Below are positions 1 through 13,233 of a stretch of 23,527 nt of DNA, in pieces. The position numbers and the translations under genes were made by a program. The DNA is from a virus. The notes beneath the pieces were generated by a model that was not told the DNA's origin, did no database searches, and saw only the letters and a list, made by a program, of their open reading frames with translations. The stretch spans positions 8,614-32,140 of IMG/VR virus record IMGVR_UViG_3300037961_002524; one strand, 5' to 3'. The stretch's first letter is position 1; the number at the start of each line of letters is the position of its first letter.

Positions 1-2
1 TA

Positions 3-731
3 AAACCTGAGCATATAAAATTCTTTGATGAATGTATAGATGGTGGTAATGTTGCCACATCATGGGATCCTAATATCAGATTTGCAAACGAAAAACAAAG
101 AGAATTATGGGAATTTAATGTACGAACATTAGTAGAATATGGTATAAGACTTAAATGCTTTATATCAGTCACAGCTGATATGGTACAAATGGATCCATTA
201 GAAATAGCTGACTATATGCATTCACTTGGTATATCTGAGATCTCATACGAACGTCTTACTCATAACGGTAATGCTGAACTCAACCCAGACATATTTCCAC
301 ACAATAGAGACCTTGATAAGTGGTGGATGCGTATGCATGAAACAACTAAGGATCATCCTGTAGAGAATGGATTCCTTGATTCTGTCTATGCAAAGTTTGA
401 TGCAGGTCAGTTTTTTAACGGTACATTTTGTAGAGATTGTGAACAAAAGATTCATACTATCAATGCCGATGGTACAGTCGCGGGCTGCCCCAATGCCGCA
501 CCAACAGAATGGTATGGACACATAAATACACCTGCAAAAGAAGTAAGATCTTCACCAAAACGTATGGAAATTATTTCTTGTGAATTACATGAAAGAGATC
601 AGAGATGTTATGATTGTCCGGTCTTTATATATTGTCATTCTGATTGCCATCAATTAAGATGGATGGACGATGTATGTCCAGCACCTAAAACACTTATGAT
701 GACCCTAGCGAAGGAAAAGGGATGGATTTAA
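3..731 (+). CDS. Radical SAM/SPASM enzyme, C-terminal part (5' end outside window)
   Basis: The reading frame is open from the window edge to the TAA at 729, giving 242 visible residues; the ATG at 180 lies inside it and is not the true start. The radical SAM CX3CX2C motif must lie upstream of the window. What remains is the end of the barrel (including a SWDPNIRF stretch near residue 20) and a complete SPASM region: C146-x10-G-x4-C162, then C202-x2-C-x5-C-x3-C215 and C225. In known SPASM proteins these cysteines hold two auxiliary 4Fe-4S clusters used in peptide modification. The stop overlaps the next gene by 10 bases, so it is the first visible member of a plus-strand operon. The reaction and substrate are not readable. 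The family call is firm, the function is not. Confidence 0.85.
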   Translation, partial: KPEHIKFFDECIDGGNVATSWDPNIRFANEKQRELWEFNVRTLVEYGIRLKCFISVTADMVQMDPLEIADYMHSLGISEISYERLTHNGNAELNPDIFPHNRDLDKWWMRMHETTKDHPVENGFLDSVYAKFDAGQFFNGTFCRDCEQKIHTINADGTVAGCPNAAPTEWYGHINTPAKEVRSSPKRMEIISCELHERDQRCYDCPVFIYCHSDCHQLRWMDDVCPAPKTLMMTLAKEKGWI

Positions 732-1783
732 TTATTAAGCCTACTGAGGCATGTAACTTTAAATGTTCTTTCTGTTCTTCAACAGCGATCGACCCTAACA
801 ATGCAGGGTTGTTAGACTTGGATTATGTATTCCGTTTCCTCAAGCGTTATCCTGATACTAACTCATTGATTATTAATGGTGGAGATCCGTTGATGGTTGA
901 TCCGAGTTACTATTGGAAAATCATTGAACACCTTGACGAACATAATTATCCTGCACATATTTCGTTTACAACAAACCTATGGCCATTTTACGTAAAGCCT
1001 GAGAAATGGGTAGATCTATTCAATCATCCTCGGATGGGTATCTGTACATCATTTCAGTATGGCGGAGGTAGACTCAAAGGTGATTTTACAGAATTTACAG
1101 AAGAAGACTTTTGGGCTGTATCAGATGCAATGTTAAAATATTGTGGTGAGCGGCCTGACTTTATTGCAGTTCTTACAGATATGAATGATTATCGTGCACT
1201 TGATAATGTCAAGCTTGCCAAAGAAATGAATGTAGAATGTAAACTCAATTACGCAATGGCATCAGGCGTACAAGGTTCTACATATAGACTTAGCAAGATC
1301 TATCAGTTATATCTAGATGTGTATGACGCGGGCCTACACCCGTGGGAGTTTAACACAAAACAAATGATGAGACGATTAAAACGTGGATTTACAACCTGTC
1401 CACAAAACCGCAACTGTGATGAAGGCATTCGCGCATTCAATCCGGGTGGTGATTATTATTCATGTGGCTCATTGGCTGATGACCTTGACTATCCTATAGA
1501 CTTTGATGAAGAAATGAATGGGCCGATGCAAACACCATTGCAACATGATCCTAACATACAAACAATGAAGATGGCATGTTACACATGTCCTATGTTTGAA
1601 ATTTGTAATGGTTGTAAAAAGACAGTACGAGATATGAAACGAGAAGGTACCGTAGAAGCTCATTGTAAACAAATGAAAGGTATGGCACCTCGTATTTTAG
1701 AATTAAATGGAATGGACCCAAGTGGAGTGACGCCGTATGTCGATGAATCTATCGATCAACCCGACTTACTATTGCAACTTTAG
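722..1783 (+). CDS. Radical SAM/SPASM enzyme
   Basis: A 353-residue protein with the radical SAM 4Fe-4S motif C11-NFK-C15-SF-C18 at the very N-terminus and a GGDP motif at 53-56 in the position of the SAM-binding GGE. The C-terminal SPASM-like region has C232-x10-G-x4-C248, then C286-x2-C-x5-C-x2-C298 and C315. The last spacing is x2 where the usual SPASM spacing is x3. Such enzymes generate a 5'-deoxyadenosyl radical and often form thioether, C-C or epimerised products in peptides. The start is supported by AAGGAAAAGGG directly upstream, inside the preceding gene. It overlaps the next gene by 47 bases. The substrate is unknown; context suggests a phage-encoded peptide or virion protein, which is inference. 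Confidence 0.88.
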   Translation: MDLIIKPTEACNFKCSFCSSTAIDPNNAGLLDLDYVFRFLKRYPDTNSLIINGGDPLMVDPSYYWKIIEHLDEHNYPAHISFTTNLWPFYVKPEKWVDLFNHPRMGICTSFQYGGGRLKGDFTEFTEEDFWAVSDAMLKYCGERPDFIAVLTDMNDYRALDNVKLAKEMNVECKLNYAMASGVQGSTYRLSKIYQLYLDVYDAGLHPWEFNTKQMMRRLKRGFTTCPQNRNCDEGIRAFNPGGDYYSCGSLADDLDYPIDFDEEMNGPMQTPLQHDPNIQTMKMACYTCPMFEICNGCKKTVRDMKREGTVEAHCKQMKGMAPRILELNGMDPSGVTPYVDESIDQPDLLLQL

Positions 1784-2651
1784 ATGTGACTTTTGTTATC
1801 TGACACCTGAACAATTAGGTGATAGGCAGCAAATCAATCTCGCTGTCTTAGATCAAAGACTATCTGAAATACCAAAGATAAATCATATCGATTTGTATGG
1901 TGGTGAAATAGGTTTATTGAAGCCAGATTATTTCTATGCCATGAAAGATATTATTCGTAAATATTACGACGATGAAATAAATATAAACACAAATCTTTCT
2001 GCCTTTCCAGATTTTTTTCGTGATGATGATATTTCATTATCTGTTTCATATGACTTTGACGCAAGAGAGAAACAACAACATGTATTAAATAATATGATGG
2101 ATGCAAATAAAGAGCTCGCAGTTCTCGTTCTTGCATCTAAAAAGGTTATTGAGATGGACGTAGACTTTATGGTCCACACATTTAATATGATTAGAAATGT
2201 ACAGAGTGTAGAAATAAAACCATACTCAACTAATCAGGCTAATCAACAGAATGTTAGCCATAAAGACTTTGAGGATTTTGTAAAGAAATGGATTGACTAT
2301 CCTGGTCAGTTTGAATTTCATTTCGAAAACTCTGCACGTATTACTGATTGCTTACTTGGTCTATATAATGCATTTAGTGATGACCATGTTTATATTACAC
2401 CTAACGGTAGATTTGCCGTGTTAGAATTTGATAAGAACGACAATGAATATTTTTTAGAATTAGATTCATACGACGATTATATTAAATGGACTGAGAAAGA
2501 AAAAGAAGAAAACGTATCAGACATTTGTAGATCATGTGATTGGTTTGGTAAATGTTTGACTGAACACTATAGATATGTTACTGATTTGACAAATAGTTGT
2601 AACGGTTATAAAGGATTATTAGATTATGCAAGAATGGAAAGCCCGGTCTAA
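1737..2651 (+). CDS. Radical SAM enzyme with reduced SPASM region
   Basis: A 304-residue protein with C13-NFR-C17-DF-C20-Y and GGE at 55-57, both classical radical SAM features. At the C-terminus there is C264-x2-C-x5-C273-x14-C288, enough for one auxiliary cluster. The first half of a SPASM region survives only as C205 and a YITPNGRFAVLEF stretch in which the expected second cysteine is Leu, so this looks like a one-cluster (twitch-like) variant. The ATG at 1737 has a GGAG about nine bases upstream; a second ATG at 1743 is possible. The 47-base overlap with the previous gene and 26-base overlap with the next indicate tight co-translation. Substrate unknown. Confidence 0.85.
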   Translation: MSMNLSINPTYYCNFRCDFCYLTPEQLGDRQQINLAVLDQRLSEIPKINHIDLYGGEIGLLKPDYFYAMKDIIRKYYDDEININTNLSAFPDFFRDDDISLSVSYDFDAREKQQHVLNNMMDANKELAVLVLASKKVIEMDVDFMVHTFNMIRNVQSVEIKPYSTNQANQQNVSHKDFEDFVKKWIDYPGQFEFHFENSARITDCLLGLYNAFSDDHVYITPNGRFAVLEFDKNDNEYFLELDSYDDYIKWTEKEKEENVSDICRSCDWFGKCLTEHYRYVTDLTNSCNGYKGLLDYARMESPV

Positions 2652-3027
2652 AGCATATCATTTGATGGCAACAGAACACAAAGACGATTTAAATAAAGTA
2701 GATATCGTATGGCGACCTGATTCTATAGTTAATGATGCTGTAAGACATTTTGACGAGAAGGTAGATGAGTGGATCTACCCAGCTAAATCATACTTTGTGG
2801 CAATATGCTATGCAAACTGGATAGCCTTAGATTTCAATGAAGATTTTCACGAGGTTTTGAACGATAGAGATTTACTGCCACACGATCCGTATTTTAAACC
2901 ATATACTGAGGATCAAAATACATATGACGACATTCTTTGGTACGCTAATTGGAATAACAACGAACAAGGCATGGTGCCTGACGTAAGAGAGTATTACGAA
3001 GAAGAGATGCTAATTGGAAAACTTTGA
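2626..3027 (+). CDS. Small acidic protein of unknown function in the radical SAM operon
   Basis: A 133-residue protein I do not recognise. It is rich in Asp, Glu, Trp and Tyr, with one cysteine near residue 61, no signal peptide and no membrane segment. It starts inside the end of one radical SAM gene (26-base overlap; AGGA about ten bases before the ATG) and its end overlaps the start of the next by 14 bases, so it is embedded in the enzyme operon and probably made with it. Possible roles are a peptide-binding partner (as RRE-type proteins are for RiPP enzymes), a substrate, or an unrelated phage protein. No motif decides between these. It carries no CHTS-like repeat. Confidence 0.75.
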   Translation: MQEWKARSKAYHLMATEHKDDLNKVDIVWRPDSIVNDAVRHFDEKVDEWIYPAKSYFVAICYANWIALDFNEDFHEVLNDRDLLPHDPYFKPYTEDQNTYDDILWYANWNNNEQGMVPDVREYYEEEMLIGKL

Positions 3028-4090
3028 TTTTACAAAAGCAATACTAGAACCCAAGAGGCCAAACATAGGTGAGATTGAACTGACCTTGTTTGAGAACTGT
3101 CACTTGAATTGTATCTTTTGTCATCATGATAAAAAGTCAACAGTTGGTTTATCTCGAGAAGGTATATTTTCTAAGATACCATTAGTAGAAGACCATGTAA
3201 AGAAAATGGTTGGAATGGTTAAAGTCTGCCAAATCAATATGGTTGGCGGTGAGCTATTTCAAGACAGGATATCTCATTGGGCATACGACGTATATTATGA
3301 TATGCTCATAGAGATTAAAAAGATATACGACAAATACGATATGGAAATAAAAGTCGTATGGGTTACGTCCTTTCAATTCAATAAACAAGAAAGAGTACAA
3401 AAACTATTAGATGATTTAAATAAAGCAGGCATCCCATCTTATATTATTTGTTCATACGACTTTGACGGTCGACCAGTGAAAGGACCTTATGGAAGAAACA
3501 TTGAGTACTTTGCAGACTATATTACATCAATTAATATGGTTGCAACAGTCCCATCTATAGAGAGGTTTATGGCAGATGATGATGAGTATTTCCACTATTT
3601 GTATAGTAAGTTTGATAATTTCTATTTTGATGACTACATTCCTGATAAAGGGTTTGACCATCTCATTCCTTCTGATTCTCAATATCTTGATTTCCTCAAG
3701 TTTGTTTACCATAATTACCCTGACATTAATCCTATGGCAGACCTTATAGAGAATGAATCAAATCATATGCATTGTATGGCATTAAATAAAGTTACTATCT
3801 TTCCAGACAATAGCATATCAAACTGTAGATGGAATCGTTATACTAAATCAGACTTTAATACACCACTGAATAGAGGTGACAATGCATCGATGATGCAAGC
3901 ATACATGGATGAGCATGGTTGTTTGTCTTGTAAGTGGTGGGATAAATGTGGATTTAGATGTTATACACAATGGGATTGGAAAAACCGTGAGAGAGATCTA
4001 CCTGATTGTGTAATGAGAATGTGGTTTAATTATCAGCTACAATACCAGGAAACACACAGGCGGTTAGAGAGTGATGTTGCATATAACTAA
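3014..4090 (+). CDS. Radical SAM/SPASM enzyme with TTG start
   Basis: A 358-residue protein with C29-HLN-C33-IF-C36, VGGE at 77-80, and a full SPASM-type region: C254 and C271 flanking a TIFPDNSISN stretch, then C303-x2-C-x5-C-x3-C316 and C332. Start: the codon at 3014 is TTG, immediately preceded by an in-frame TAA, and the first internal Met (65) lies beyond the catalytic cysteines, so TTG is the best start. A purine-rich GAAGAAGAG lies about eight bases upstream. It is the last gene of the plus-strand operon and its 3' end overlaps the converging minus-strand enzyme gene by 65 bases. Probably a peptide- or protein-modifying enzyme; substrate unknown. Confidence 0.87.
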   Translation: MENFDFTKAILEPKRPNIGEIELTLFENCHLNCIFCHHDKKSTVGLSREGIFSKIPLVEDHVKKMVGMVKVCQINMVGGELFQDRISHWAYDVYYDMLIEIKKIYDKYDMEIKVVWVTSFQFNKQERVQKLLDDLNKAGIPSYIICSYDFDGRPVKGPYGRNIEYFADYITSINMVATVPSIERFMADDDEYFHYLYSKFDNFYFDDYIPDKGFDHLIPSDSQYLDFLKFVYHNYPDINPMADLIENESNHMHCMALNKVTIFPDNSISNCRWNRYTKSDFNTPLNRGDNASMMQAYMDEHGCLSCKWWDKCGFRCYTQWDWKNRERDLPDCVMRMWFNYQLQYQETHRRLESDVAYN

Positions 4091-5042
4091 GCACACCTTT
4101 GTCTATGCAAGTCATCTGATTAGGGCAACCGGTACAATTCTCTGTTTCATACATTAACTGTTGTGTAAACATATTTGTTTTAGGTTCTTCCCAACTATTT
4201 AAATCAGTTGGATCTTTGACCTCAAACTCTTCTGTACCTATCAATGCTATGTCATATATAAACGGTGTCCAGAAAAATCTATCATTACAATACGTATAGT
4301 TTAGTTCAAGGCTACCTCCTTGAGCTTGGTCAACAATTGTTTTAGGATATAGATCATCACTAAAATCATACTTCTTCCATTTCTCAATTAGATGCTTATG
4401 TACTTTAGATTTTTCTGCTCTAAAGAATGATGGGTTCAGTGTCAGAATAGAATCAAATACTTTATCTACAACTCTTGACATATCTAAAACTTGTTCGTTG
4501 TACTCATCATCATTACCCATATTATAAACAAAGTAATAATTAAGATCATCCCAGAATAAATCGAGTGCACTCATCTTCTCTTTAATGTCAGCCCAATTTA
4601 CAGGTGGTTGTAATTGAATATTACAGTCATACATAAACCCATCTCGTTTCGGTATTGAATTAAGTCTATCAATAACCTGTAAATCTATATGTTCGAGTGT
4701 AGTAACAAACTGTATAGTAGTTACTTTTGATAAGCATTCTCTAAAGACTTTATCGTTTAGCAGAGATATAATATTATTATTGCCAAACAGGTCAGTAGGG
4801 CCAATATTGATAGTAGAGACGTGATAACCATTGTTCTTAAATAAATCTATTGCGTTGTTTAGTTTATCAAATGATCCTACATTGGATCCTAGTTTATTTA
4901 CAAAGCAGCCTTTGCATTTAAACTCACAACCGGATAGTACTTCACAATTAAACTGTACTTTTACTTTATGCCCTTCGCTAAATGATAAATCAAAATCATC
5001 ACTAGCTTGAGCATGCTGCTTATTGTTAGTAACTATTCCCAT
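4026..5042 (-). CDS. Radical SAM enzyme, IGPTD family, paralogue 1
   Basis: 338 residues from the chosen start. An upstream in-frame ATG at 5060 is possible, but the ATG at 5042 has GAGGT just before it. Motifs: C39-EFK-C43-KG-C46-FV, then IGPTD at 80-84 where radical SAM enzymes normally have GGE, a NPSFFRA stretch near 210, a TPFIYD stretch near 260, and C303-x2-C-x5-C312-x16-C329 near the C-terminus, likely binding an auxiliary Fe-S cluster. Four further genes in this window share this exact plan. It is the last gene of the minus-strand run, overlapping the gene before it by 17 bases and the opposing plus-strand gene by 65. Reaction unknown; peptide modification is inferred. Confidence 0.83.
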   Translation of the reverse strand: MGIVTNNKQHAQASDDFDLSFSEGHKVKVQFNCEVLSGCEFKCKGCFVNKLGSNVGSFDKLNNAIDLFKNNGYHVSTINIGPTDLFGNNNIISLLNDKVFRECLSKVTTIQFVTTLEHIDLQVIDRLNSIPKRDGFMYDCNIQLQPPVNWADIKEKMSALDLFWDDLNYYFVYNMGNDDEYNEQVLDMSRVVDKVFDSILTLNPSFFRAEKSKVHKHLIEKWKKYDFSDDLYPKTIVDQAQGGSLELNYTYCNDRFFWTPFIYDIALIGTEEFEVKDPTDLNSWEEPKTNMFTQQLMYETENCTGCPNQMTCIDKGVLSYMQHHSLTACVFPGIVADN

Positions 5043-6171
5043 GATATACCTCATCATCAAATAATTCTATTGCACCTTTATTCAAGATGCATTCTTTTCT
5101 ATTCTGAAAAACTGTTTCCATTACACGTGGAACTAATCTATGAGAACAGATATTTAGATATTTACATTTATAACAATCCGATAATTGACTATTTTGAATT
5201 TGATGGTTTACAACCCAATCTTTATATGTTAATATATGGTCAACTATATCACCACCTTTTTCTATATCAATTAAGAAAGCATCATTATAGATCTGTGCAT
5301 TTTCATATATGAACGGTGCCATGAATATTCTGCCATCATGAATATTAATAACTGAATAATGAAATGCTTTGTGCGATAAGTCACCTTGTAAAAAATGAAA
5401 GCGCTGTTTAAACTTAGATGGATTCTCTGATAGTTTAGTGAGCATATCATTCCATTCAAATAACTTCTCACCATGCTTCGGACTATAGTCAAATGATCTT
5501 ACAACCGACGGTAGAATCTCAATAACGGTTTGATATTGTTCTCGGACAAGAGATATGGCATCATAGATAATATCTTCTATGCCTTCTACTATATTTGTAG
5601 CCATTGATATTTCATAGTTAAGAGAAGAGTTTTTGAATGTTTCTATTCTATCATTTAATGCTTGCTTGTACGTTTCGTCATATATCAAACGTTTGACATC
5701 TATCGCCACCTGTACATCCCAAGACTTGACCACGCTACCCAGGAGAGACCTTTCTATCTTACGTATCTTTCCCTCAATGTCCTTTTCTGACAAGGATCCA
5801 AGTATCGAACAATTGTGTTGAATGTTACGATTATCTTCAGGCATCATTACAATACCTTCGGCAAGTTTAACATCTTCAATGATTGTATCTAGATTCTCTG
5901 CACCATAAAAATCTGTAGGACCAATGACTAAGTCATCTAATACAACATCTTCTCTGCCCATTAATTCATTTGCTAATCGCCAAAACAAATGTACTGAGTA
6001 TGGATTCCAATTGCCTTTACGTTTTACAAAACATCCCGGGCACATGTACGCACATCCCTCAAGCAATTCTAACTGAGGTTGAATCTTGTATTGTGTCATG
6101 GCAGAAACAGCTGTAAATTCTTCTAGTCTGTTTCCGTCAACTACAATCTTTTTCCATTCATCATTTAACAT
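5026..6171 (-). CDS. Radical SAM enzyme, IGPTD family, paralogue 2
   Basis: A 381-residue protein with C40-AYM-C44-PG-C47-FVKRKG, VIGPTDFYGAEN at 82-93, LPSVVRSF near 220, MAPFIYEN near 285, and C333-x2-C-x5-C342-x18-C361. The last spacing is two residues longer than in its four paralogues. The start codon overlaps the end of the preceding gene (11 bases shared); the upstream AAGAG is a weak ribosome site, consistent with translational coupling. The family resemblance to its neighbours is clear from motif order, although overall sequence has diverged strongly, which suggests old duplication and different targets or steps. Substrate unknown. Confidence 0.84.
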   Translation of the reverse strand: MLNDEWKKIVVDGNRLEEFTAVSAMTQYKIQPQLELLEGCAYMCPGCFVKRKGNWNPYSVHLFWRLANELMGREDVVLDDLVIGPTDFYGAENLDTIIEDVKLAEGIVMMPEDNRNIQHNCSILGSLSEKDIEGKIRKIERSLLGSVVKSWDVQVAIDVKRLIYDETYKQALNDRIETFKNSSLNYEISMATNIVEGIEDIIYDAISLVREQYQTVIEILPSVVRSFDYSPKHGEKLFEWNDMLTKLSENPSKFKQRFHFLQGDLSHKAFHYSVINIHDGRIFMAPFIYENAQIYNDAFLIDIEKGGDIVDHILTYKDWVVNHQIQNSQLSDCYKCKYLNICSHRLVPRVMETVFQNRKECILNKGAIELFDDEVYHGNSY

Positions 6172-7318
6172 ATGATATGCTCTTGATTCTTTCTAATTCA
6201 GGATCATTATCTTTTGTAACAAGAAACTTCTTGCGATAACCTTTCTTATCATTCTCAACACTATAGCCATCCCATTGATACATTGTTTGTGCTGCATGAT
6301 TAAAGTTATCTATATTTCTCATCATGTTTTCTTTAGGTGCAATACATCTATCTTCACCCAAATAATCTCTGAGTAGAATAATCTTACGATTATAACAAGA
6401 AAAATATAATTCGCAGTTCTCGCATTCTGTACCTTTTGCAAGGTAATTTTGTGATTCTATTATAGGTAGTATGTCATCAAACTTTTCTATCTTAAATGTA
6501 TCATCATAGATTGCCATATTCTCATACATAAAAGGACTGATAAACCATTCACCTTTCTTGTAATTCAGAACCTGATAATTCATACCGCCATGAGAATGGT
6601 CGACCATAATATTATTCAATTTTGTATCTTTACTCAATACATTAAAATACTCATTGAACTTATCAAGAGTAGCAAGAATAATATTTGATTTATGTGAACG
6701 TGATACGGAAGGAATAAAGTCTAAGATAGTATTAAACTCTTTGACTGCCTGATCGTGTAAGGCCGAATAGTCTAATCCATAGTCTTTAATATTTACAACA
6801 AATGTGTAAGTCACCTCATGTTCGAGGTTTTCATCTATATACTTTAGCACATCCTTGATGTGTTGTACATAGTTTTTTTCATAAAATTTATGTGGGTTTG
6901 TAGCAATACCGATTTCTATTTCGGTATCTGTGTTTATCCGACGAGTGATCCAATCACAAAAGCGAACAATGTCACCATCAATAAGGGTGCTAACAAAAGC
7001 AAGAATAGGTGAATTTTCATTTATAATATACTCCAGTTGTGGCATAACCTCATAGAAGTTTTCACTGGCCAGAAAGTCAGTAGGTCCGATAAGAATCTCG
7101 TCTACTAAAATACCATGATCAGTAATACTTTCAATAAAGGCTTCTGCTTTTCTAATTTGATTCTCATCACTAGCATTACCTCGTCTATGGACAAAGCAGC
7201 CCGGACACTTGTGATGACAACCGTCTAATACATCTAATTGAATCTTAACTGCTGATACCGGTTTTGTTTGAGTTTCAGTAGTCAGTTCATAGTATAAATT
7301 ATTTTTAATGAGAGGCAT
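6161..7318 (-). CDS. Radical SAM enzyme, IGPTD family, paralogue 3
   Basis: A 385-residue protein with C34-HHK-C38-PG-C41-FVHRRG, LIGPTDFLASEN at 76-87, IPSVSRSH near 215, ISPFMYEN near 265, and C299-x2-C-x5-C308-x16-C325. Unlike its paralogues it carries a 60-residue extension after the last cysteine, basic in its middle (KKGYRKKF). It might contact a partner or substrate, which is inference. The start overlaps the preceding gene by 14 bases, with AAAGAG seven bases upstream of the ATG. Part of the minus-strand enzyme run. Confidence 0.84.
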   Translation of the reverse strand: MPLIKNNLYYELTTETQTKPVSAVKIQLDVLDGCHHKCPGCFVHRRGNASDENQIRKAEAFIESITDHGILVDEILIGPTDFLASENFYEVMPQLEYIINENSPILAFVSTLIDGDIVRFCDWITRRINTDTEIEIGIATNPHKFYEKNYVQHIKDVLKYIDENLEHEVTYTFVVNIKDYGLDYSALHDQAVKEFNTILDFIPSVSRSHKSNIILATLDKFNEYFNVLSKDTKLNNIMVDHSHGGMNYQVLNYKKGEWFISPFMYENMAIYDDTFKIEKFDDILPIIESQNYLAKGTECENCELYFSCYNRKIILLRDYLGEDRCIAPKENMMRNIDNFNHAAQTMYQWDGYSVENDKKGYRKKFLVTKDNDPELERIKSISYVK

Positions 7319-8327
7319 GCATGTACTCTTTAATTGCTACGCAACTATTTAAATCTCTTGATTCCATGTACATGTGGACATTACGTTCTGCACAACTCAT
7401 CATAAATTCACAACCATTACAGTCATCAACTTGTTGCGCATATTCTATATTGTCATATAGTTTATTCTCATCCATCGTAGTCTCAAAGAACGGAGTACGT
7501 TGAATAATTGCATCATATAGAAACGGATTAATGTATAGCTTACCATTATAATAACTATAGTTTTGGCAACCTAGTCCATTAAACTTTGCATCAAAGAATG
7601 TATAATAGTTTCGCCACTTCTCGTCTATATTCTGATTCAGTAAGTCTTCTCTAAAGTTAGCAAGATGTTGACTTACTTTGCCTCTTGCATTTCTATCTGT
7701 TAGGAAAGAAGGCGTGATTACAACCGGTGCATTAAAATCTTCAAATGTCTTTTCACATAGATCATTATAGCTAATACGATCAAACACACCTTTATAATAA
7801 TTAACTCTAAATTGTACAGAGCCATGTTCGAATAGTTTTAGTTTCTTATACCAATCATCAAGTTCTCCGTCTAGATACTTATTGACATCTAAAACAATTT
7901 TAAAATCTATATCAGGTATTCTTTTTGTATGTCTATAGAGTGCCCATATCTTATCTAGTTTTTCTTTAACTACCCAATATGGTTGTAAAAGTGTAGACGT
8001 GAATCCAATAGCCGAAATCTCAAAAAGCTTGAGCATATACTCATGATTAATAATCTCCTCAAAGTTTTGTGCGTCAAATATATCAGTAGGTCCAATGACT
8101 ATCTCGTCTGGGTAATAATGGCCATTCGATAATAGTTCATATAGATCTTTTAACTGATCTGCATTTGTTAAATTTTTACGTGGAATAAAACAACCTGGAC
8201 ACATCTGATCACAACCGTGAAGTATGTCAAGGTTTACTTCTGTTCTTAAGAAGTCTTGATTAATAGGTGAATGTTCAGGATCGTAGTTATAATAACCTGC
8301 ATATGTATTATTCAGCTTTAATATCAT
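7305..8327 (-). CDS. Radical SAM enzyme, IGPTD family, paralogue 4
   Basis: A 340-residue protein with C39-DQM-C43-PG-C46-FIPRKN, VIGPTDIFDAQN at 77-88, a TPSFLTDR stretch in the place of the family's PSxxR motif, INPFLYDA near 270, and C303-x2-C-x5-C312-x16-C329. A good AAGGA lies seven bases before the ATG, inside the 3' end of the preceding gene (20-base overlap). The cluster-binding cysteines all match the family plan, so it is probably active, but the substrate is not readable from sequence. Confidence 0.84.
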   Translation of the reverse strand: MILKLNNTYAGYYNYDPEHSPINQDFLRTEVNLDILHGCDQMCPGCFIPRKNLTNADQLKDLYELLSNGHYYPDEIVIGPTDIFDAQNFEEIINHEYMLKLFEISAIGFTSTLLQPYWVVKEKLDKIWALYRHTKRIPDIDFKIVLDVNKYLDGELDDWYKKLKLFEHGSVQFRVNYYKGVFDRISYNDLCEKTFEDFNAPVVITPSFLTDRNARGKVSQHLANFREDLLNQNIDEKWRNYYTFFDAKFNGLGCQNYSYYNGKLYINPFLYDAIIQRTPFFETTMDENKLYDNIEYAQQVDDCNGCEFMMSCAERNVHMYMESRDLNSCVAIKEYMHASH

Positions 8328-9045
8328 GCCAGAATCCTTCTGGTAACATCTTTACTATTTCGTTAGTAACTCCAGTTTGGGTAAAAATAAACATTAGATC
8401 TTTACCATAATATTTTGGATTGTCATTAAATATTTGTTTATTGAAAGATTGGGTTATACCTCTTGTATGAAATACTAAATACATTGCATCTATAGCTTCT
8501 GTTACTAATCGTGCTATGTTCGGACCTACATTACTTGCTGTATCTGTAATCTCTATGTCTTTTATAAGTTTTTCTAATTCAGGCTCTTTACCTTCTTCGT
8601 TAACTTCGTTTATCTTATATAGAACAAACGGAAATATACTTTGTATAGCTGATATTAAGTCTTCTAATAAATTTTTATTTAATTCGATAAACTCTTCCAT
8701 GTCTTTATCTGGAAAAATCAAATGAGCTAAATGAGCTTCGGGAGCTGTCAACTCATAATCCAAATACTTACGTAAAATAATTGTTAGCACTCTACCTAAA
8801 ATAGGAGCGTTAACTAAAAAGTTAGACTTAATAAACTCTTGTATTAAGCCTGGAGTAATTTTATCGAAGGTTGTTTTGAAATTAGTATTAGCAAGATAAA
8901 TCAGAATATGTTGATCAGTTAACTTTTCAGTTGTCTTATCATAATCTACGTGTAATACAAATTCTTCCTCGCTCTCATCTTTTTCTTTGTAGATAGCTAC
9001 AAGGTCTTGCGGAGCAAGAGGTAAAGTGTAATACTTTTTTTCCAT
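8308..9045 (-). CDS. Cysteine-free protein of unknown function between radical SAM genes
   Basis: A 245-residue protein I do not recognise. It has no cysteine, no signal peptide and no convincing membrane helix. The middle (about residues 75-180) looks helical with Leu/Ile-rich stretches and acidic segments. AGGA stands seven bases before the ATG, and its 3' end overlaps the next radical SAM gene by 20 bases, so it is co-translated with the enzymes. Candidate roles are an accessory protein that delivers a substrate, a chaperone or assembly factor for a fibre, or an unrelated structural protein. Nothing seen distinguishes these. Confidence 0.75.
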   Translation of the reverse strand: MEKKYYTLPLAPQDLVAIYKEKDESEEEFVLHVDYDKTTEKLTDQHILIYLANTNFKTTFDKITPGLIQEFIKSNFLVNAPILGRVLTIILRKYLDYELTAPEAHLAHLIFPDKDMEEFIELNKNLLEDLISAIQSIFPFVLYKINEVNEEGKEPELEKLIKDIEITDTASNVGPNIARLVTEAIDAMYLVFHTRGITQSFNKQIFNDNPKYYGKDLMFIFTQTGVTNEIVKMLPEGFWHDIKAE

Positions 9046-9053
9046 AATATATC

Positions 9054-10142
9054 CTATAGTGGGTATTTGTGAATCAAATACGGTATTCTATTTTGTCTCT
9101 TTGAAAAGAATTGTACATCTGTATTTATTAACTTAATATCAGCACTTAAATTTTCCATATCATAGTCTTGCTGAATAACCTTACGAACGATAGGAAATGC
9201 ATTTTTAAATTCTGTATATAGATCCATATATTCCCAACCATCCGGAGTTGAATCTGCTTTTGATTGGTGTGCAGCAATAAAGTTCGCATCGTCTTTTACA
9301 CGATTCCATTGTTCTTCCATCTTATAGAATGCTTGTGTATACTGACCTTTGTTTGCAAGATTTAAATATGTTTCTTTCACCCATGCATCCTTATCTACTG
9401 GATAACCATTTGCATTCATCCAGTCGATTACTGATAAGAAGTATGCCATGTAATGTCGACGTGAAGTAAAGTGTTCCATCACATCTTTAGCCATTGTATT
9501 AGAATGTATAGTAAACTTCTCTTTAATTAAACCTTGTACAGATGCATTCGTATGATAATCATTTAGATAAAACAATAGATCATAACTAAAGTTTGCACCA
9601 TTCTGATATGTATTAGCATATAATCCATGCGTATTAATCATATTTTTTACATAAGCTGCTACATCTGTTAAATCTTCATTAACAGTCATATAGTTAAACA
9701 TCCAATCAGCTTCTACGATCTTAGCAACAAAATCTGCTGCTTTATCTCTATGTTCTTCATTAGAAAGAGTTGGCCAGAATCTAGATGCTTTGAGTAGTCC
9801 TGCAACATATCTACCTAAAATATTAAGATGATCAAAGTCATCTGTAAACATAAGAATCACTTTATCACTATTTTCAAGATACGTGATATCATCAACTTCA
9901 TCAAAGTTTTTCCATTCCATTACAATACGAGAATCGGCTGTTTTACTTCTTACCGTATTTTCAACACCATCACGAGCAGCCGTAGCTGCGTTCTCTCTTC
10001 GTTGATCCATTTCTACAAATACTAACTTACGTGGGTTGCCAGTATGATAGAATGAATTTAATTCAAATAACACTGTATCAAGGTTTGAGAACGTTGTACA
10101 ATACTTTTTGTTATTTAAATAATATAAATTTTGACCTATCAT
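9054..10142 (-). CDS. Protein of unknown function following the first radical SAM gene
   Basis: A 362-residue protein I do not recognise. It has one cysteine (residue 15), many aromatic residues, and a probably helical C-terminal two thirds; no membrane segment or classical catalytic motif is visible. Its ATG overlaps the TGA of the preceding radical SAM gene (ATGA junction) with AAAGGG upstream, which points to translational coupling. Eight bases separate it from the next gene. Its position between two members of the same radical SAM family makes a role as their partner plausible, but this rests on context only. Confidence 0.77.
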   Translation of the reverse strand: MIGQNLYYLNNKKYCTTFSNLDTVLFELNSFYHTGNPRKLVFVEMDQRRENAATAARDGVENTVRSKTADSRIVMEWKNFDEVDDITYLENSDKVILMFTDDFDHLNILGRYVAGLLKASRFWPTLSNEEHRDKAADFVAKIVEADWMFNYMTVNEDLTDVAAYVKNMINTHGLYANTYQNGANFSYDLLFYLNDYHTNASVQGLIKEKFTIHSNTMAKDVMEHFTSRRHYMAYFLSVIDWMNANGYPVDKDAWVKETYLNLANKGQYTQAFYKMEEQWNRVKDDANFIAAHQSKADSTPDGWEYMDLYTEFKNAFPIVRKVIQQDYDMENLSADIKLINTDVQFFSKRQNRIPYLIHKYPL

Positions 10143-11305
10143 GCCATTGCCCTTTCTGCGTCATCGTTCCATGTAAAATCATATGGGTTATATAGCTCTA
10201 GTACATCTTTATTCATTACACATCCATTAACATTAAGTGAAGTTTGAGCTTCAAATACTAATCTATTTGCACAAGCAATTGCAAACTGACAGTCCGCACA
10301 ATCTTTTACCTGTGATGATCTATTTATACCCTTAGCCACAAGTGCATTCTTATGTTGTAATATTTCTTCAAAAGATAATCCAGTCACATCAAGGTTTACA
10401 TTTTCTAAGAAGAATGCCTGCTCATGTAGCATTACATTCAAGTGAGTTGTAGGACCATGCTTACCTGGTACTATTGTCAAACCAACAAAGTTAATTGAGT
10501 TACAATATAGATTTGCCATAGACATTACAGTCTCACTAGCATTGTCTTCATCTATAACTTTGCCAAGAAAATCGTTCCACGAAAATAGATTATTTCGTTT
10601 TATGATTTGATTTCGTGCACGTGAGAATGCTGGATTCATTTCAACAATCGTTTCGTATTCGTTTACTGATTTGTCAATTATACGATTGTATGTTTCTTTG
10701 TCGATCTTCTTACCAACTACATTTGAAGCTTGTAGAGTCCATGACCAATCCATTTGCTTTGGTGTTTCATTCTTAAAAAATTCTACTTTCTTCATAACTT
10801 CATTATAGTAGTCATCATCATCTAACATCTCAGCCACACGACCGATAGGCATAATAAACTCAATGATCATCTCACGTCTGTACTTGTCTTCATCATCTAG
10901 TACAGCAAAGATCTCTTTGAGTTTCTCCATAGAAACTTTATCGAACTTGGCCGGAGCTGCAATACGTGCACCTGTATGTTCACGCATGATATCTTGTACA
11001 ACAGAATTATTCAAGACAGTCTTTGTGTTTTCGGCCGTAAAGAAATCTGTTGGACCAATAACAAACTCACGCAAGTTAAGTCCTGTCCTCTTTACTCCGT
11101 CTGCCAATTCTTTGGCCCTATCGATAATAGCCTGATTCATATCAGGGTCAATGTTCTTATCTACGAAACATCCAAGACAGCCATGATCACATCCTGCCAG
11201 GACTTCCATTTGAATCAAAACATCAAATTTGTATGCATCAGATGGAGCAAGACTTTCAGGTCCAGAATACCTCATCTGTTTGCAATATGATTTTTGCATA
11301 GTCAT
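10139..11305 (-). CDS. Radical SAM enzyme, IGPTD family, paralogue 5, adjacent to CHTS-tailed proteins
   Basis: 388 residues from the chosen start. The ATG at 11305 overlaps the stop of the preceding gene as TAATG and has AGAGGA upstream; an in-frame ATG at 11344 would run deep into that gene. Motifs: C39-DHG-C43-LG-C46-FVDK, VIGPTDFFTAEN at 82-93, NPAFSRAR in the PSxxR position, and C336-x2-C-x5-C345-x16-C362. The PF-Y-E motif of its paralogues is altered to VMLHEQ. It is the member of the family lying directly downstream of, and translationally coupled to, the two CHTS-tailed genes, so it is the best single candidate to act on their Cys-rich tails. That link is inferred. Confidence 0.85.
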   Translation of the reverse strand: MTMQKSYCKQMRYSGPESLAPSDAYKFDVLIQMEVLAGCDHGCLGCFVDKNIDPDMNQAIIDRAKELADGVKRTGLNLREFVIGPTDFFTAENTKTVLNNSVVQDIMREHTGARIAAPAKFDKVSMEKLKEIFAVLDDEDKYRREMIIEFIMPIGRVAEMLDDDDYYNEVMKKVEFFKNETPKQMDWSWTLQASNVVGKKIDKETYNRIIDKSVNEYETIVEMNPAFSRARNQIIKRNNLFSWNDFLGKVIDEDNASETVMSMANLYCNSINFVGLTIVPGKHGPTTHLNVMLHEQAFFLENVNLDVTGLSFEEILQHKNALVAKGINRSSQVKDCADCQFAIACANRLVFEAQTSLNVNGCVMNKDVLELYNPYDFTWNDDAERAMA

Positions 11306-11688
11306 TAGCGTCTTCCTCTCGATGTATGACAACTTGTATGGCAACTAGTATGACATACGTAATGTGATTGTGATCTATTCGTATATCTTCCTTCGATCAC
11401 ATCAACTGTTCTACGTACAATATCTTCCATTGTATCTACGATGTCTTGTGCATATATTCTACCACCTGAATATATTCCACCATCATAGTAACCACTATAT
11501 ACGTTATTATTTGCACCTGTATATTCAAACCTATGGTTTGTTGATGCCGAACTTGTACCGGATGTATTCCCTCCAGTAGCATTAGTATAAACACTTGTAT
11601 TTACGTTAATAGTTTTATCGAATGTACGTAGCTGTGGTCCACCATAAGACTGTACCCAGCTATTAATATCACTTGGATCCATAGTCAT
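11305..11688 (-). CDS. Small CHTS-tailed protein 2, candidate modified peptide or virion protein
   Basis: A 127-residue protein made of a roughly 110-residue N-terminal part and a C-terminal tail CHTSCHTSCHTSRGRR (residues 112-127). The N-terminal part has GGPQLRTF at 16-23, a Gly/Ser/Thr/Asn-rich middle, and a probably helical stretch at about 78-98. The only cysteines are the three in the tail. Its start overlaps the stop of its paralogue as TAATG; its own stop overlaps the downstream radical SAM start in the same way. A conserved N-terminal part followed by a short repetitive Cys-rich C-terminus is the layout of RiPP precursors. An alternative is a small tail-tip protein whose Cys/His pairs bind metal. 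I recognise no named family. Confidence 0.8.
   Translation of the reverse strand: MTMDPSDINSWVQSYGGPQLRTFDKTINVNTSVYTNATGGNTSGTSSASTNHRFEYTGANNNVYSGYYDGGIYSGGRIYAQDIVDTMEDIVRRTVDVIEGRYTNRSQSHYVCHTSCHTSCHTSRGRR
11308..11355 (-). repeat. Three CHTS tetrapeptide repeats plus RGRR, copy in protein 2
   Basis: This encodes the last 16 residues of the 127-residue protein: three perfect Cys-His-Thr-Ser units followed by Arg-Gly-Arg-Arg and the stop. The same 16 residues end the neighbouring paralogue. The codons differ between the two copies only at silent positions. The regular Cys spacing and small hydroxyl residues make it a plausible target for radical SAM thioether or related chemistry, or a metal-binding strip; neither is proven. 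Confidence 0.85.
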
Positions 11689-12068
11689 TAGCGTCTACCT
11701 CTTGATGTATGGCAACTTGTATGACAGCTAGTATGGCACACTAAAGCACCATATGAATGGTTACCTGTTACAGCTTCGATTCTATCGACAGTACCACGTA
11801 CACAATTAGCAAATGAGTTTTGTACATCCTCATCATATATTCTAGAACCTGTATAAATCCTAGATGCTAAGTCATTGTTATATGTACTATAAGGACCACT
11901 ACCGTCTGAATGTGTTAATGTTGTATTATGAGTAGTTGTACCAGAGCTGGGTCCGCCAGATGCATATGTGTAAACAGCTGTGGCCATATTATAGCTAACA
12001 GAGAATGTCCTCAACTGCGGTCCACACTGGTTTTGTACATTTGTATTTAATTGTGACCAGGTTGCCAT
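11688..12068 (-). CDS. Small CHTS-tailed protein 1, candidate modified peptide or virion protein
   Basis: A 126-residue paralogue of the next gene downstream. The two share GPQLRTF near residue 17, a VYT-A-GG stretch in the middle, RIY-x5-V around residues 76-85, a VD-IE stretch near residue 96, and the identical tail CHTSCHTSCHTSRGRR (111-126). Elsewhere they have diverged. It has two extra cysteines (15 and 89) absent from its partner. A good AAGGTG ribosome site precedes the ATG, which lies one base after the stop of the collagen-like fibre gene, so it is expressed with the fibre genes and could be a virion component. Likely either a RiPP-like precursor with a large leader or a small structural protein with a maturable tail. 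Confidence 0.8.
   Translation of the reverse strand: MATWSQLNTNVQNQCGPQLRTFSVSYNMATAVYTYASGGPSSGTTTHNTTLTHSDGSGPYSTYNNDLASRIYTGSRIYDEDVQNSFANCVRGTVDRIEAVTGNHSYGALVCHTSCHTSCHTSRGRR
11691..11738 (-). repeat. Three CHTS tetrapeptide repeats plus RGRR, copy in protein 1
   Basis: This encodes the C-terminal 16 residues of the 126-residue protein, identical in amino acids to the copy at 11308-11355 but with six silent codon differences: Cys codons at repeat positions 1, 5 and 9, Ser codons at 4 and 12, and the Gly codon at 14. The repeat units use different codons (TGC/TGT, ACT/ACA, AGC/AGT/TCA), so this is not simple microsatellite slippage. Confidence 0.85.
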
Positions 12069-12069
12069 A

Positions 12070-13233
12070 TTACACCTTCACTTCTATTTCACCCTCGCCA
12101 TCCTCTAAGGCGATACCTACTAAATTACGCACGTCTGTGTGATGCATACTATCAACAGCCCTTGCTTTGCCTATGTCATCTGTAATAACATAATCACCCT
12201 TTTTAGCAATACCATTTATTTTTACTGGCACTCTACCTTTCAAAGCAATTACAGGCCAATACTCGTCATCTGGTCTCTCATACTCCATATTCATTACTAA
12301 GCCAGGTTTTGTAGAAACCACACCGGCAAAAGGCATACCAACTCTGTATAATGTAACTTCTTTCTCACCGCCTATAGCGAGTAATGTACCTGGTTCATAT
12401 TCAGCATCAGCTTCATAATGTTCTGCAAGGTCAGACCAGTTTGCAGAATAGGCAGTACCGTTAAAACCACCGTCCGCTCTCATAACGCCTGGAGTATATA
12501 TTCCGTTACTAAATTCACTAGCGTTGTTTAGACGTAAATATTCATCGTTATAATCTGCTGATAATGCAATCTGACCGTTGAAAGAAATACCTCTATTATC
12601 GTCAGTAGAGTTAGCACTAAAATTTAAACAATCTCTTGATGAACTAGATAAAGTTATAATACCACTTGCTGTATCATCTGCATCTGATCTTAAAAAACTA
12701 GATGCATGCAAGTTATCAACTGTATCAGCATTGTCTGCGTTTTGTCCGGGAGGACCTGTAGGACCCGGGGGCCCGTCCGGTCCGTCTGGCCCTGCTGGAC
12801 CTGTTGCTCCGGCCGGAATATCAAAATCTAATACCGCAGCGGTAGATGTACCTGTATTTGTTACAGCAGCTGAAGAACCGGCCGGCACACCAGTAACAGT
12901 ACCTATTGATATTGTACCAGCTGGACCTGGACTACCGTTACTACCGGGTGGTCCACCAGGACCAGGAGGTCCTGCACCGCCGGCAGCACCGGCTGGTATT
13001 GTAAAATCTAAAGTTGCTGCTGTAGGAGTTCCACTATTTGTAACAGACGCACTACCGCCAGCTGGTCCAGTTGTTACAGTACCGACAGCAATAGTACCGG
13101 CAGGACCAGTTGGAGCATCACCAAATGTGGTTGCTCTCCATACTCCTGGATCTCCGATATACGTATACGTATTACCGTTAATGGTGTGAGTATCACCATT
13201 ACTTGGACTCGCTGGAAAATTTAGTTTACCCAT
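12070..13233 (-). CDS. Collagen-like phage fibre protein
   Basis: A 387-residue protein. Residues 1-35 (FPASPSNGDTHTINGNTYTY, then W) match a short N-terminal motif common in phage fibre and neck-appendage proteins. Residues 43-163 hold two copies of a GTI-x2-GTVT...TAA-LDF-IPAGA module (43-82 and 104-142), each followed by Gly-Pro-rich collagen-like GXY repeats, which form trimeric rods in phage fibres. Then comes NADTVDNLHASSFLRSDA, usual in tail fibres, and a C-terminal domain (about 258-387) with WSDLAEHYEAD, PGTLL and GVVSTKPG stretches resembling autocleaving Peptidase_G2-type fibre ends; that assignment is tentative. Acts on the virion exterior, probably in the distal tail or host contact. 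The ribosome site is weak. Confidence 0.83.
   Translation of the reverse strand: MGKLNFPASPSNGDTHTINGNTYTYIGDPGVWRATTFGDAPTGPAGTIAVGTVTTGPAGGSASVTNSGTPTAATLDFTIPAGAAGGAGPPGPGGPPGSNGSPGPAGTISIGTVTGVPAGSSAAVTNTGTSTAAVLDFDIPAGATGPAGPDGPDGPPGPTGPPGQNADNADTVDNLHASSFLRSDADDTASGIITLSSSSRDCLNFSANSTDDNRGISFNGQIALSADYNDEYLRLNNASEFSNGIYTPGVMRADGGFNGTAYSANWSDLAEHYEADAEYEPGTLLAIGGEKEVTLYRVGMPFAGVVSTKPGLVMNMEYERPDDEYWPVIALKGRVPVKINGIAKKGDYVITDDIGKARAVDSMHHTDVRNLVGIALEDGEGEIEVKV
12748..13107 (-). repeat. Two-copy GTI...IPAGA module with collagen-like GXY stretches
   Basis: This encodes residues 43-162 of the collagen-like fibre: two tandem copies of an approximately 40-residue module, each followed by Gly-X-Y triplets rich in Pro. 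It is locally more GC-rich than its surroundings because of the Gly/Pro codons. That also opens a long antisense frame on the plus strand, which I do not consider a gene. Confidence 0.75.

Follow-up and report, generated by a model that had tools for sequence, protein, structure and literature searches.

A nearly invariant Cys-His-Xaa-Ser tag on phage proteins of fibre-gene neighbourhoods is linked to a radical SAM cassette and is its probable substrate

Phage proteins encoded near tail-fibre genes end in a short repetitive tag that occurs together with a cassette of radical SAM enzymes, whether the tag or the enzymes are searched for first. This 16-residue tag is accompanied by four core radical SAM families in diverse phages as well as in the chromosomes of a bacterial clade that has predators among its members. 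We consider it likely that these fibre-associated proteins carry the tag as the substrate of the cassette and that the modified tag is kept on the attachment fibre. We know of no described virion protein that is modified by radical SAM enzymes, a literature search for such a protein found none, and the tag sequences that we tried in the literature search appeared in no paper found. Papers on the phages concerned list their radical SAM arrays as unconnected accessory genes (PMC11898562, PMC8066314, PMC5468394), and Ralstonia phage RSF1 is said to share these enzyme genes (PMC8066314). If our reading is true, it supplies a function for phage radical SAM arrays, and modification of the tag would mean new protein chemistry at the point of contact between a phage or predator and its target cell. 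Cultured phages carry both tag and cassette, so the proposal is testable now.

The tag proteins and the conservation of the tag

The window, by which we mean the whole 23,527-nucleotide stretch of DNA analysed here, is part of a 32,140-base IMG/VR virus record. An earlier note on this DNA had described two adjacent paralogous proteins of 126 and 127 residues with diverged bodies and an identical 16-residue end, and this description holds throughout. The two open reading frames (ORFs) lie in tandem on the minus strand with a one-base overlap (Table 1), their products are 47% identical (E 2e-28), and both end in CHTSCHTSCHTSRGRR, that is, in three CHxS units followed by RGRR. The 48-base tails of the two genes differ at six positions, all of them third codon positions, which indicates that the identity is held at the protein level and is not that of a fresh copy. 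None of 100 shuffles contained the tag pattern, of which the window has two occurrences. Chance and fresh gene conversion as sources of the common tail were ruled out by the synonymous-only differences together with the recurrence of the tail elsewhere.

The AF2 model of tag protein 1 (pLDDT 76.5) predicts a helix, a beta hairpin, a long helix and a disordered tail. A Foldseek search of the PDB with this model gave no match at an E value of ≤0.001, so the predicted structure lends no support to a location at the fibre tip; a profile of single-type tag proteins likewise had no convincing match among PDB sequences. When either window tag protein was compared with isolate phages by tblastn, no match was obtained because the bodies are too diverged, and two further tag bodies searched in the same way gave none either.

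Table 1. Features of the window (positions in the window; minus and plus denote strands)
Feature	Position	Strand	Evidence or remark
rC radical SAM/SPASM enzyme, C-terminal part	1..731	+	N-terminal part left of the window
rD radical SAM enzyme	722..1783	+	35.0 bits to PF04055 (cut-off, 29.5)
rA radical SAM enzyme	1737..2651	+	
rA companion, 133 aa	2626..3027	+	phrog_20737, E 4.5e-36
rE radical SAM enzyme	3014..4090	+	
rB radical SAM enzyme	4026..5060	-	
rB radical SAM enzyme	5026..6171	-	
rB radical SAM enzyme	6161..7318	-	
rB radical SAM enzyme	7305..8327	-	
u20, cassette protein aligned with the u6 family	8308..9045	-	
u19, cassette protein	9054..10142	-	
rB radical SAM enzyme, CxxxCxGC	10139..11302	-	Likely ATG start inside a TTG ORF ending at 11344
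Tag protein 2, 127 aa, paralogue of protein 1	11305..11688	-	ORF; sequence comparison
C-terminal tag CHTSCHTSCHTSRGRR of protein 2	11308..11355	-	
RGRR codons with Shine-Dalgarno-like core	11308..11319		
Tag protein 1, 126 aa	11688..12068	-	ORF; AF2 model
C-terminal tag CHTSCHTSCHTSRGRR of protein 1	11691..11738	-	
RGRR codons with Shine-Dalgarno-like core	11691..11702		
Adjacent tail-fibre protein	12070..13233	-	Collagen-like repeats, weak Peptidase_G2 (intramolecular chaperone) match

A DNA-level search of IMG/VR for CHxSCHxSRGRR-stop, a pattern that requires two CHxS units, returned at least 119 stretches, and the tails read from the matches have three CHx[S/N/Q] units though only two were required. 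Among the matches listed, 144 distinct tag proteins form 79 clusters at 70% body identity, and the bodies fall into seven blastp families with lengths of 124 to 309 aa. Across these 79 clusters (again among the matches listed), neither R-x-R-R nor the Cys and His residues of any of the three units vary, the Ser positions are kept in 77 to 78 clusters, the x position of the units is free and the tag codons are synonymously mixed; most members were found by the pattern itself, and the unbiased evidence is that of the first unit and of the members found by homology. An alignment of the single-type tag proteins has a mean column identity of 25%, with the tag nearly invariant. The strict pattern behind most members under-samples relaxed tags, and variants do occur in the predator genomes described below. 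Tags found by homology end in RSRR in Atu_ph07 and Phosso and in SARGRR in pPa_SNUABM_DT01. The common denominator of all tags is an initial Cys-His, a further His (usually with Cys) and an end of the form x-[S/A]-R-[G/S]-R-R.

Among the matches listed, 113 of 119 tails have a Shine-Dalgarno-like core within the RGRR codons, as do both window genes, so RGRR may be conserved in part because it helps the following gene to be translated. A mere ribosome-binding site is insufficient as an explanation, as the six tails without the core still keep RGRR. The pattern is rare in cellular DNA: 257 Gb of cellular contigs gave only 14 matches, of which 10 are in-frame protein ends, all with CxxxCxxC ORFs within the 5.7 to 8 kb fetched. 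The other four matches, which have no in-frame tag ORF, were set aside.

The cassette and its linkage to the tag

In the window, the tag genes are followed on the minus strand by rB, u19, u20 and four more copies of rB, and this run converges on a plus-strand set composed of rC, rD, rA, the rA companion and rE. The record has nine radical SAM genes; its part to the left of the window also contains a gene of the cupin family and a gene of the 2OG-Fe oxygenase family. At the left window edge, a run of N that is probably a scaffold gap breaks up rC, and the CxxxCxxC motif of rC lies beyond that edge. More generally, the cassette consists of the radical SAM families rA, rC, rD and rE (plus copies of rB), a cupin, 2OG-Fe oxygenases and function-unassigned proteins. 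Among 60 loci, rA is present in 52, rC in 58, rD in 54, rE in 51, the cupin in 49, the rA companion in 43, u6 in 48 or u20 in 9, and u9 in 36 or u19 in 9, several of the absences being those of loci cut by contig ends. The rB family, the B12-type family rF and the 2OG-Fe oxygenases are present in part of these loci.

All six radical SAM families have the CxxxCxxC motif, and Pfam matches agree with the assignment of the cupin, the B12-binding radical SAM family and the 2OG-Fe oxygenases; the window rB proteins scanned were below the Pfam radical SAM cut-off. An rC protein from another locus (L132) scored 35.9 bits against the SPASM model TIGR04085 (cut-off, 27), and rC is nearest to the PapB, anSME, CXXX-repeat and HxsB maturases while being a member of none of these families. 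The rD profile gives a near full-length match to the anaerobic sulfatase maturase structures 4k36/4k37. In two loci, ORFs of 464 aa (L160:2429-3820) and 448 aa (L161:17394-18737) suggest a candidate fusion of rA to its 133-aa companion. We also modelled the core cassette protein u6 (L146:9088-9801; AF2 pLDDT, 88.9). This model had no Foldseek match in the PDB at an E value of ≤0.001, its best Z score by Foldseek plus VIA-align against the PDB was 3.9 and concerned the N-terminal part only, and profiles of u6 and u9 had no convincing match among PDB sequences. A role as a defence system was considered and rejected, as rA, rC and rD gave only weak, generic viperin matches.

The earlier note had tied the tail to radical SAM genes, and it had named the same tail in many phages lacking such genes as the finding that would count against the link. 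The link is strongly supported, and a search for (C-H-x-S)n-RGRR and its co-occurrence with radical SAM genes brought up no such case. Starting from the tag, PF04055 matches were present in 50 of 50 tested IMG/VR records, mostly four or five in each, and exceeded the Pfam cut-off in 45 of them. Among 123 fetched tag loci, 119 had a match to one of the six family HMMs, the nearest lying within 2.1 kb; for the other four, less than 1.7 kb had been fetched downstream, and three of these sit in records with radical SAM genes. The tag was not found apart from the conserved cassette among the tag loci examined.

The opposite direction gave the same association. Searches of isolates with rE and rD matched jumbo phages only (Atu_ph07, Phosso, FLC6, FLC8, SURPRISE13 and pPa_SNUABM_DT01), and a tag protein lies next to rC in all five that were opened (Atu_ph07, Phosso, FLC6, SURPRISE13 and pPa_SNUABM_DT01). 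The tag was present in 24 of the 39 IMG/VR contigs longer than 22 kb that were found by rD, and the 15 untagged ones end before the place where it is expected; two untagged contigs that seemed long enough were checked, and both begin inside the cassette. As a control, we took 41 records by capsid-protein similarity: four have rD and are all tagged, 36 have neither, and the remaining one is a tagged fragment whose contig ends ∼4.4 kb away from the tag. Radical SAM matches are absent from most untagged control records; a single record has eight, which are of a different kind. Kinship among the records means that a P value for these counts would overstate their independence.

Radical SAM arrays also occur at other places in such genomes. 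A 399,796-base phage contig without a tag (G052, the record of L275) has one at ∼177 to 190 kb, and another record (G057, that of L288) has a second array at ∼20 to 34 kb, far from its tag cassette. Upstream of the cassette in L138 there are seven related ORFs (cluster 22; ∼285 to 309 aa), six of which are consecutive; by eye only, they look pantothenate-synthetase-like.

Both window tag genes lie downstream of the collagen-like tail-fibre gene, and in many loci the tag protein is within a fibre-gene neighbourhood. In Atu_ph07, the tag protein is gp170. According to the text of PMC6102473, electrospray tandem mass spectrometry (ESI-MS/MS) identified 131 virion proteins of this phage, most of them in CDS 31-76, 170-215 and 284-329. 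The major head protein is gp215 in the record, as it is in that text, so the numbering agrees and the cluster of CDS 170-215 begins exactly with the tag protein. This start suggests, short of proof, that gp170 was detected, and judging from the cluster boundary in the text of PMC6102473, it is probably a virion component. Infection by phage S13 (SURPRISE13) requires flagella (PMC11898562).

Cassettes on bacterial chromosomes

Four of the 10 in-frame cellular tag loci are in Bdellovibrio-like genomes, one each of the Halobacteriovoraceae, Bacteriovoracaceae and Bdellovibrionaceae and one more, which belongs to the same class as the first two. In these bacteria, the cassette is chromosomal. The genes mutL, miaA and rpsT are near it on the Halobacteriovoraceae contig, metG is near it in the fourth genome, and no Gp23 capsid match was found in any of the four. 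An rD query had matches in 13 of 126 genomes of the class of the Halobacteriovoraceae and Bacteriovoracaceae genomes and in 3 of 144 genomes of the class of the Bdellovibrionaceae genome; in one rD-bearing genome of these classes, the match is on a 4,153,408-base contig. The chromosomal tags are variants (CHSACHDNCHSSRGRR, CHGNFPPPCHGSRGRR, CHTNVPTPPPCHASRGRR, CHSNHCSHSNHGSRGRR, CHTNCHGSCHGARGRR, CHASCHSSCHGARGRR and CHSSHSSHSSHSSRGRR), the last of which is a His-Xaa-Ser repeat. The tag was not found in L374, an 8.5-kb contig, or in L381, where rD is 85 bases from the contig end.

Beside the cassette there are prepilins fused to the S74 chaperone of phage fibres, with both domains above their Pfam cut-offs. 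Two of these proteins (L380:13076-14200 and L354:9628-10914) combine a prepilin N-methylation domain with the tail-fibre S74 chaperone. The fusion looks like a pilus-borne fibre adhesin. Two tag proteins of the predator clade had no Pfam match, S74 being present only in the adjacent prepilin fusion. Bdellovibrio recognises its prey with S74 fibres (PMC10769870), and we infer from their relatives that the cassette-bearing bacteria are predators.

Proposed function and comparison with known systems

We propose that the tag proteins are fibre-associated phage proteins, probably the fibre tip or a tip cap, and that the surrounding radical SAM cassette would act on their flexible C-terminal tag as its substrate. 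The nearly invariant RGRR (R-x-R-R) would most likely be the docking end, and rA (with its 133-aa companion), rC, rD and rE would act on the Cys, His and Ser residues of the CHxS units. The rB copies would act too in the lineage of the window, as would the B12-type rF, the cupin and the 2OG-Fe oxygenases in its relatives. Enzymes of these classes are known to form thioether or carbon-carbon crosslinks, to oxidise and to hydroxylate; the product could be a strip of Cys and His residues that is oxidised or crosslinked and possibly metal-bearing. The modified tag would most likely stay on the fibre, since the cassette genes scanned include no recognisable protease or exporter and fibre genes are regular neighbours, and it would serve in binding to or piercing the bacterial surface. 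Modification of the tag by the cassette appears highly probable, and a role of the tag in attachment appears somewhat favoured. We give about even chances to the broader proposal that phages and predatory bacteria share a machine of at least four radical SAM families that builds a new Cys/His/Ser structure, crosslinked or metal-bearing, on a permanent tag of the attachment fibre, which would be both a new modification and a new mode of gripping or piercing.

The earlier note had seen the layout of a RiPP precursor in the tag proteins. The layout itself stands, as a large N-terminal part precedes a short repetitive C-terminal segment, and the tag protein lies beside its presumed maturases in the manner of RiPP precursors, with several SPASM enzymes and oxygenases adjoining the tag gene and His-Xaa-Ser-like repeats present in L383. 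A classical RiPP would further require that the tag be a core that is modified, cut off and released as a bioactive peptide against phages, hosts or prey. However, Pfam recognised no gene for leader removal or export in the cassette genes scanned (in which u6, u9 and u24 are function-unassigned), the bodies are large (124 to 309 aa) and adjacent to fibre genes, and the Atu_ph07 homologue is probably in virions by the text cited above. These points make a retained tag likelier than a released peptide, and we regard release as quite unlikely.

The invariant Cys and His residues would also suit a tip that works without enzymatic modification, in which the three Cys-His pairs per chain, nine per trimer, coordinate metal or crosslink the chains while the cassette modifies something else, e.g., the fibre shaft or the protein body. 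Such a strip of free Cys and His residues could hold metal without modification, and the tip of the T4 long tail fibre, where iron is held by His-x-His, is a precedent for a metal-binding tip. Yet the bodies have diverged so much that only the tag is common to the substrates of all loci, and one set of enzymes recurs with it whichever of the two is searched for first; these enzymes are also kept where the tag lacks the three-Cys pattern, as in CHSSHSSHSSHSS. An unmodified tip is therefore unlikely, and a metal strip or crosslink may instead be the end state of tag modification. We consider it very unlikely that the cassette serves to produce a diffusible small molecule or to alter molecules of the host, with the tag protein as its scaffold or regulator. 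Radical SAM, cupin and 2OG-Fe enzymes do occur in small-molecule pathways too, and u6, u9 and u24 leave room for such a pathway, but the constant position beside fibre genes, the SPASM kinship to peptide maturases and the probable virion location of the tag protein (on the cluster boundary in PMC6102473) argue against this reading.

Several known systems resemble this arrangement in part. Anaerobic sulfatase maturases (anSMEs), to which the rD profile matches, are SPASM enzymes that modify Cys or Ser of a protein, whereas the tag lacks the CxPxR sulfatase motif and several enzyme families recur together with it. The last positions of phrog_35144 match the tag, and this PHROG has no assigned function or stated radical SAM link. 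The MAT fibres of Bdellovibrio bacteriovorus recognise prey, and many end in a phage-like S74 domain; S74 proteins also adjoin the cassette in relatives. In contrast, an S74 domain is absent from the tag proteins scanned, and PMC10769870 does not mention radical SAM genes. Maturases of PapB ranthipeptides and of CXXX repeats act on Cys-containing repeats and are among the curated families closest to rC, which nevertheless falls far below their cut-offs (49.3 versus 340 bits for PapB and 36 versus 350 bits for the CXXX-repeat maturase).

In the HXS system, HxsA is served by the radical SAM maturases HxsB and HxsC (Haft and Basu, as presented in PMC9062424). The likeness lies in a C-terminal His-x-Ser repeat served by SPASM radical SAM enzymes: the CHxS units of the window contain HxS, and the tag of L383, CHSSHSSHSSHSS, is a literal His-Xaa-Ser repeat that matches the HxsA model over the repeat. 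The differences are that the window repeat is Cys-His-x-Ser and ends in RGRR, that at least four radical SAM families take part and that the context is that of fibres. The HxsA model TIGR03979 did not match the window proteins and gave 16.2 bits for the L383 protein (cut-off, 121.65), and the HxsB/HxsC equivalog cut-offs were missed by both rC (33.1 versus 370 bits) and rD (23.7 versus 267.9 bits). As the HXS and ranthipeptide cut-offs are missed, we regard the cassette as a new variant of radical-SAM peptide maturation, one that works like the HXS and ranthipeptide-type systems in a new setting and that may place the so far unexplained His-Xaa-Ser system in a biological context as well.
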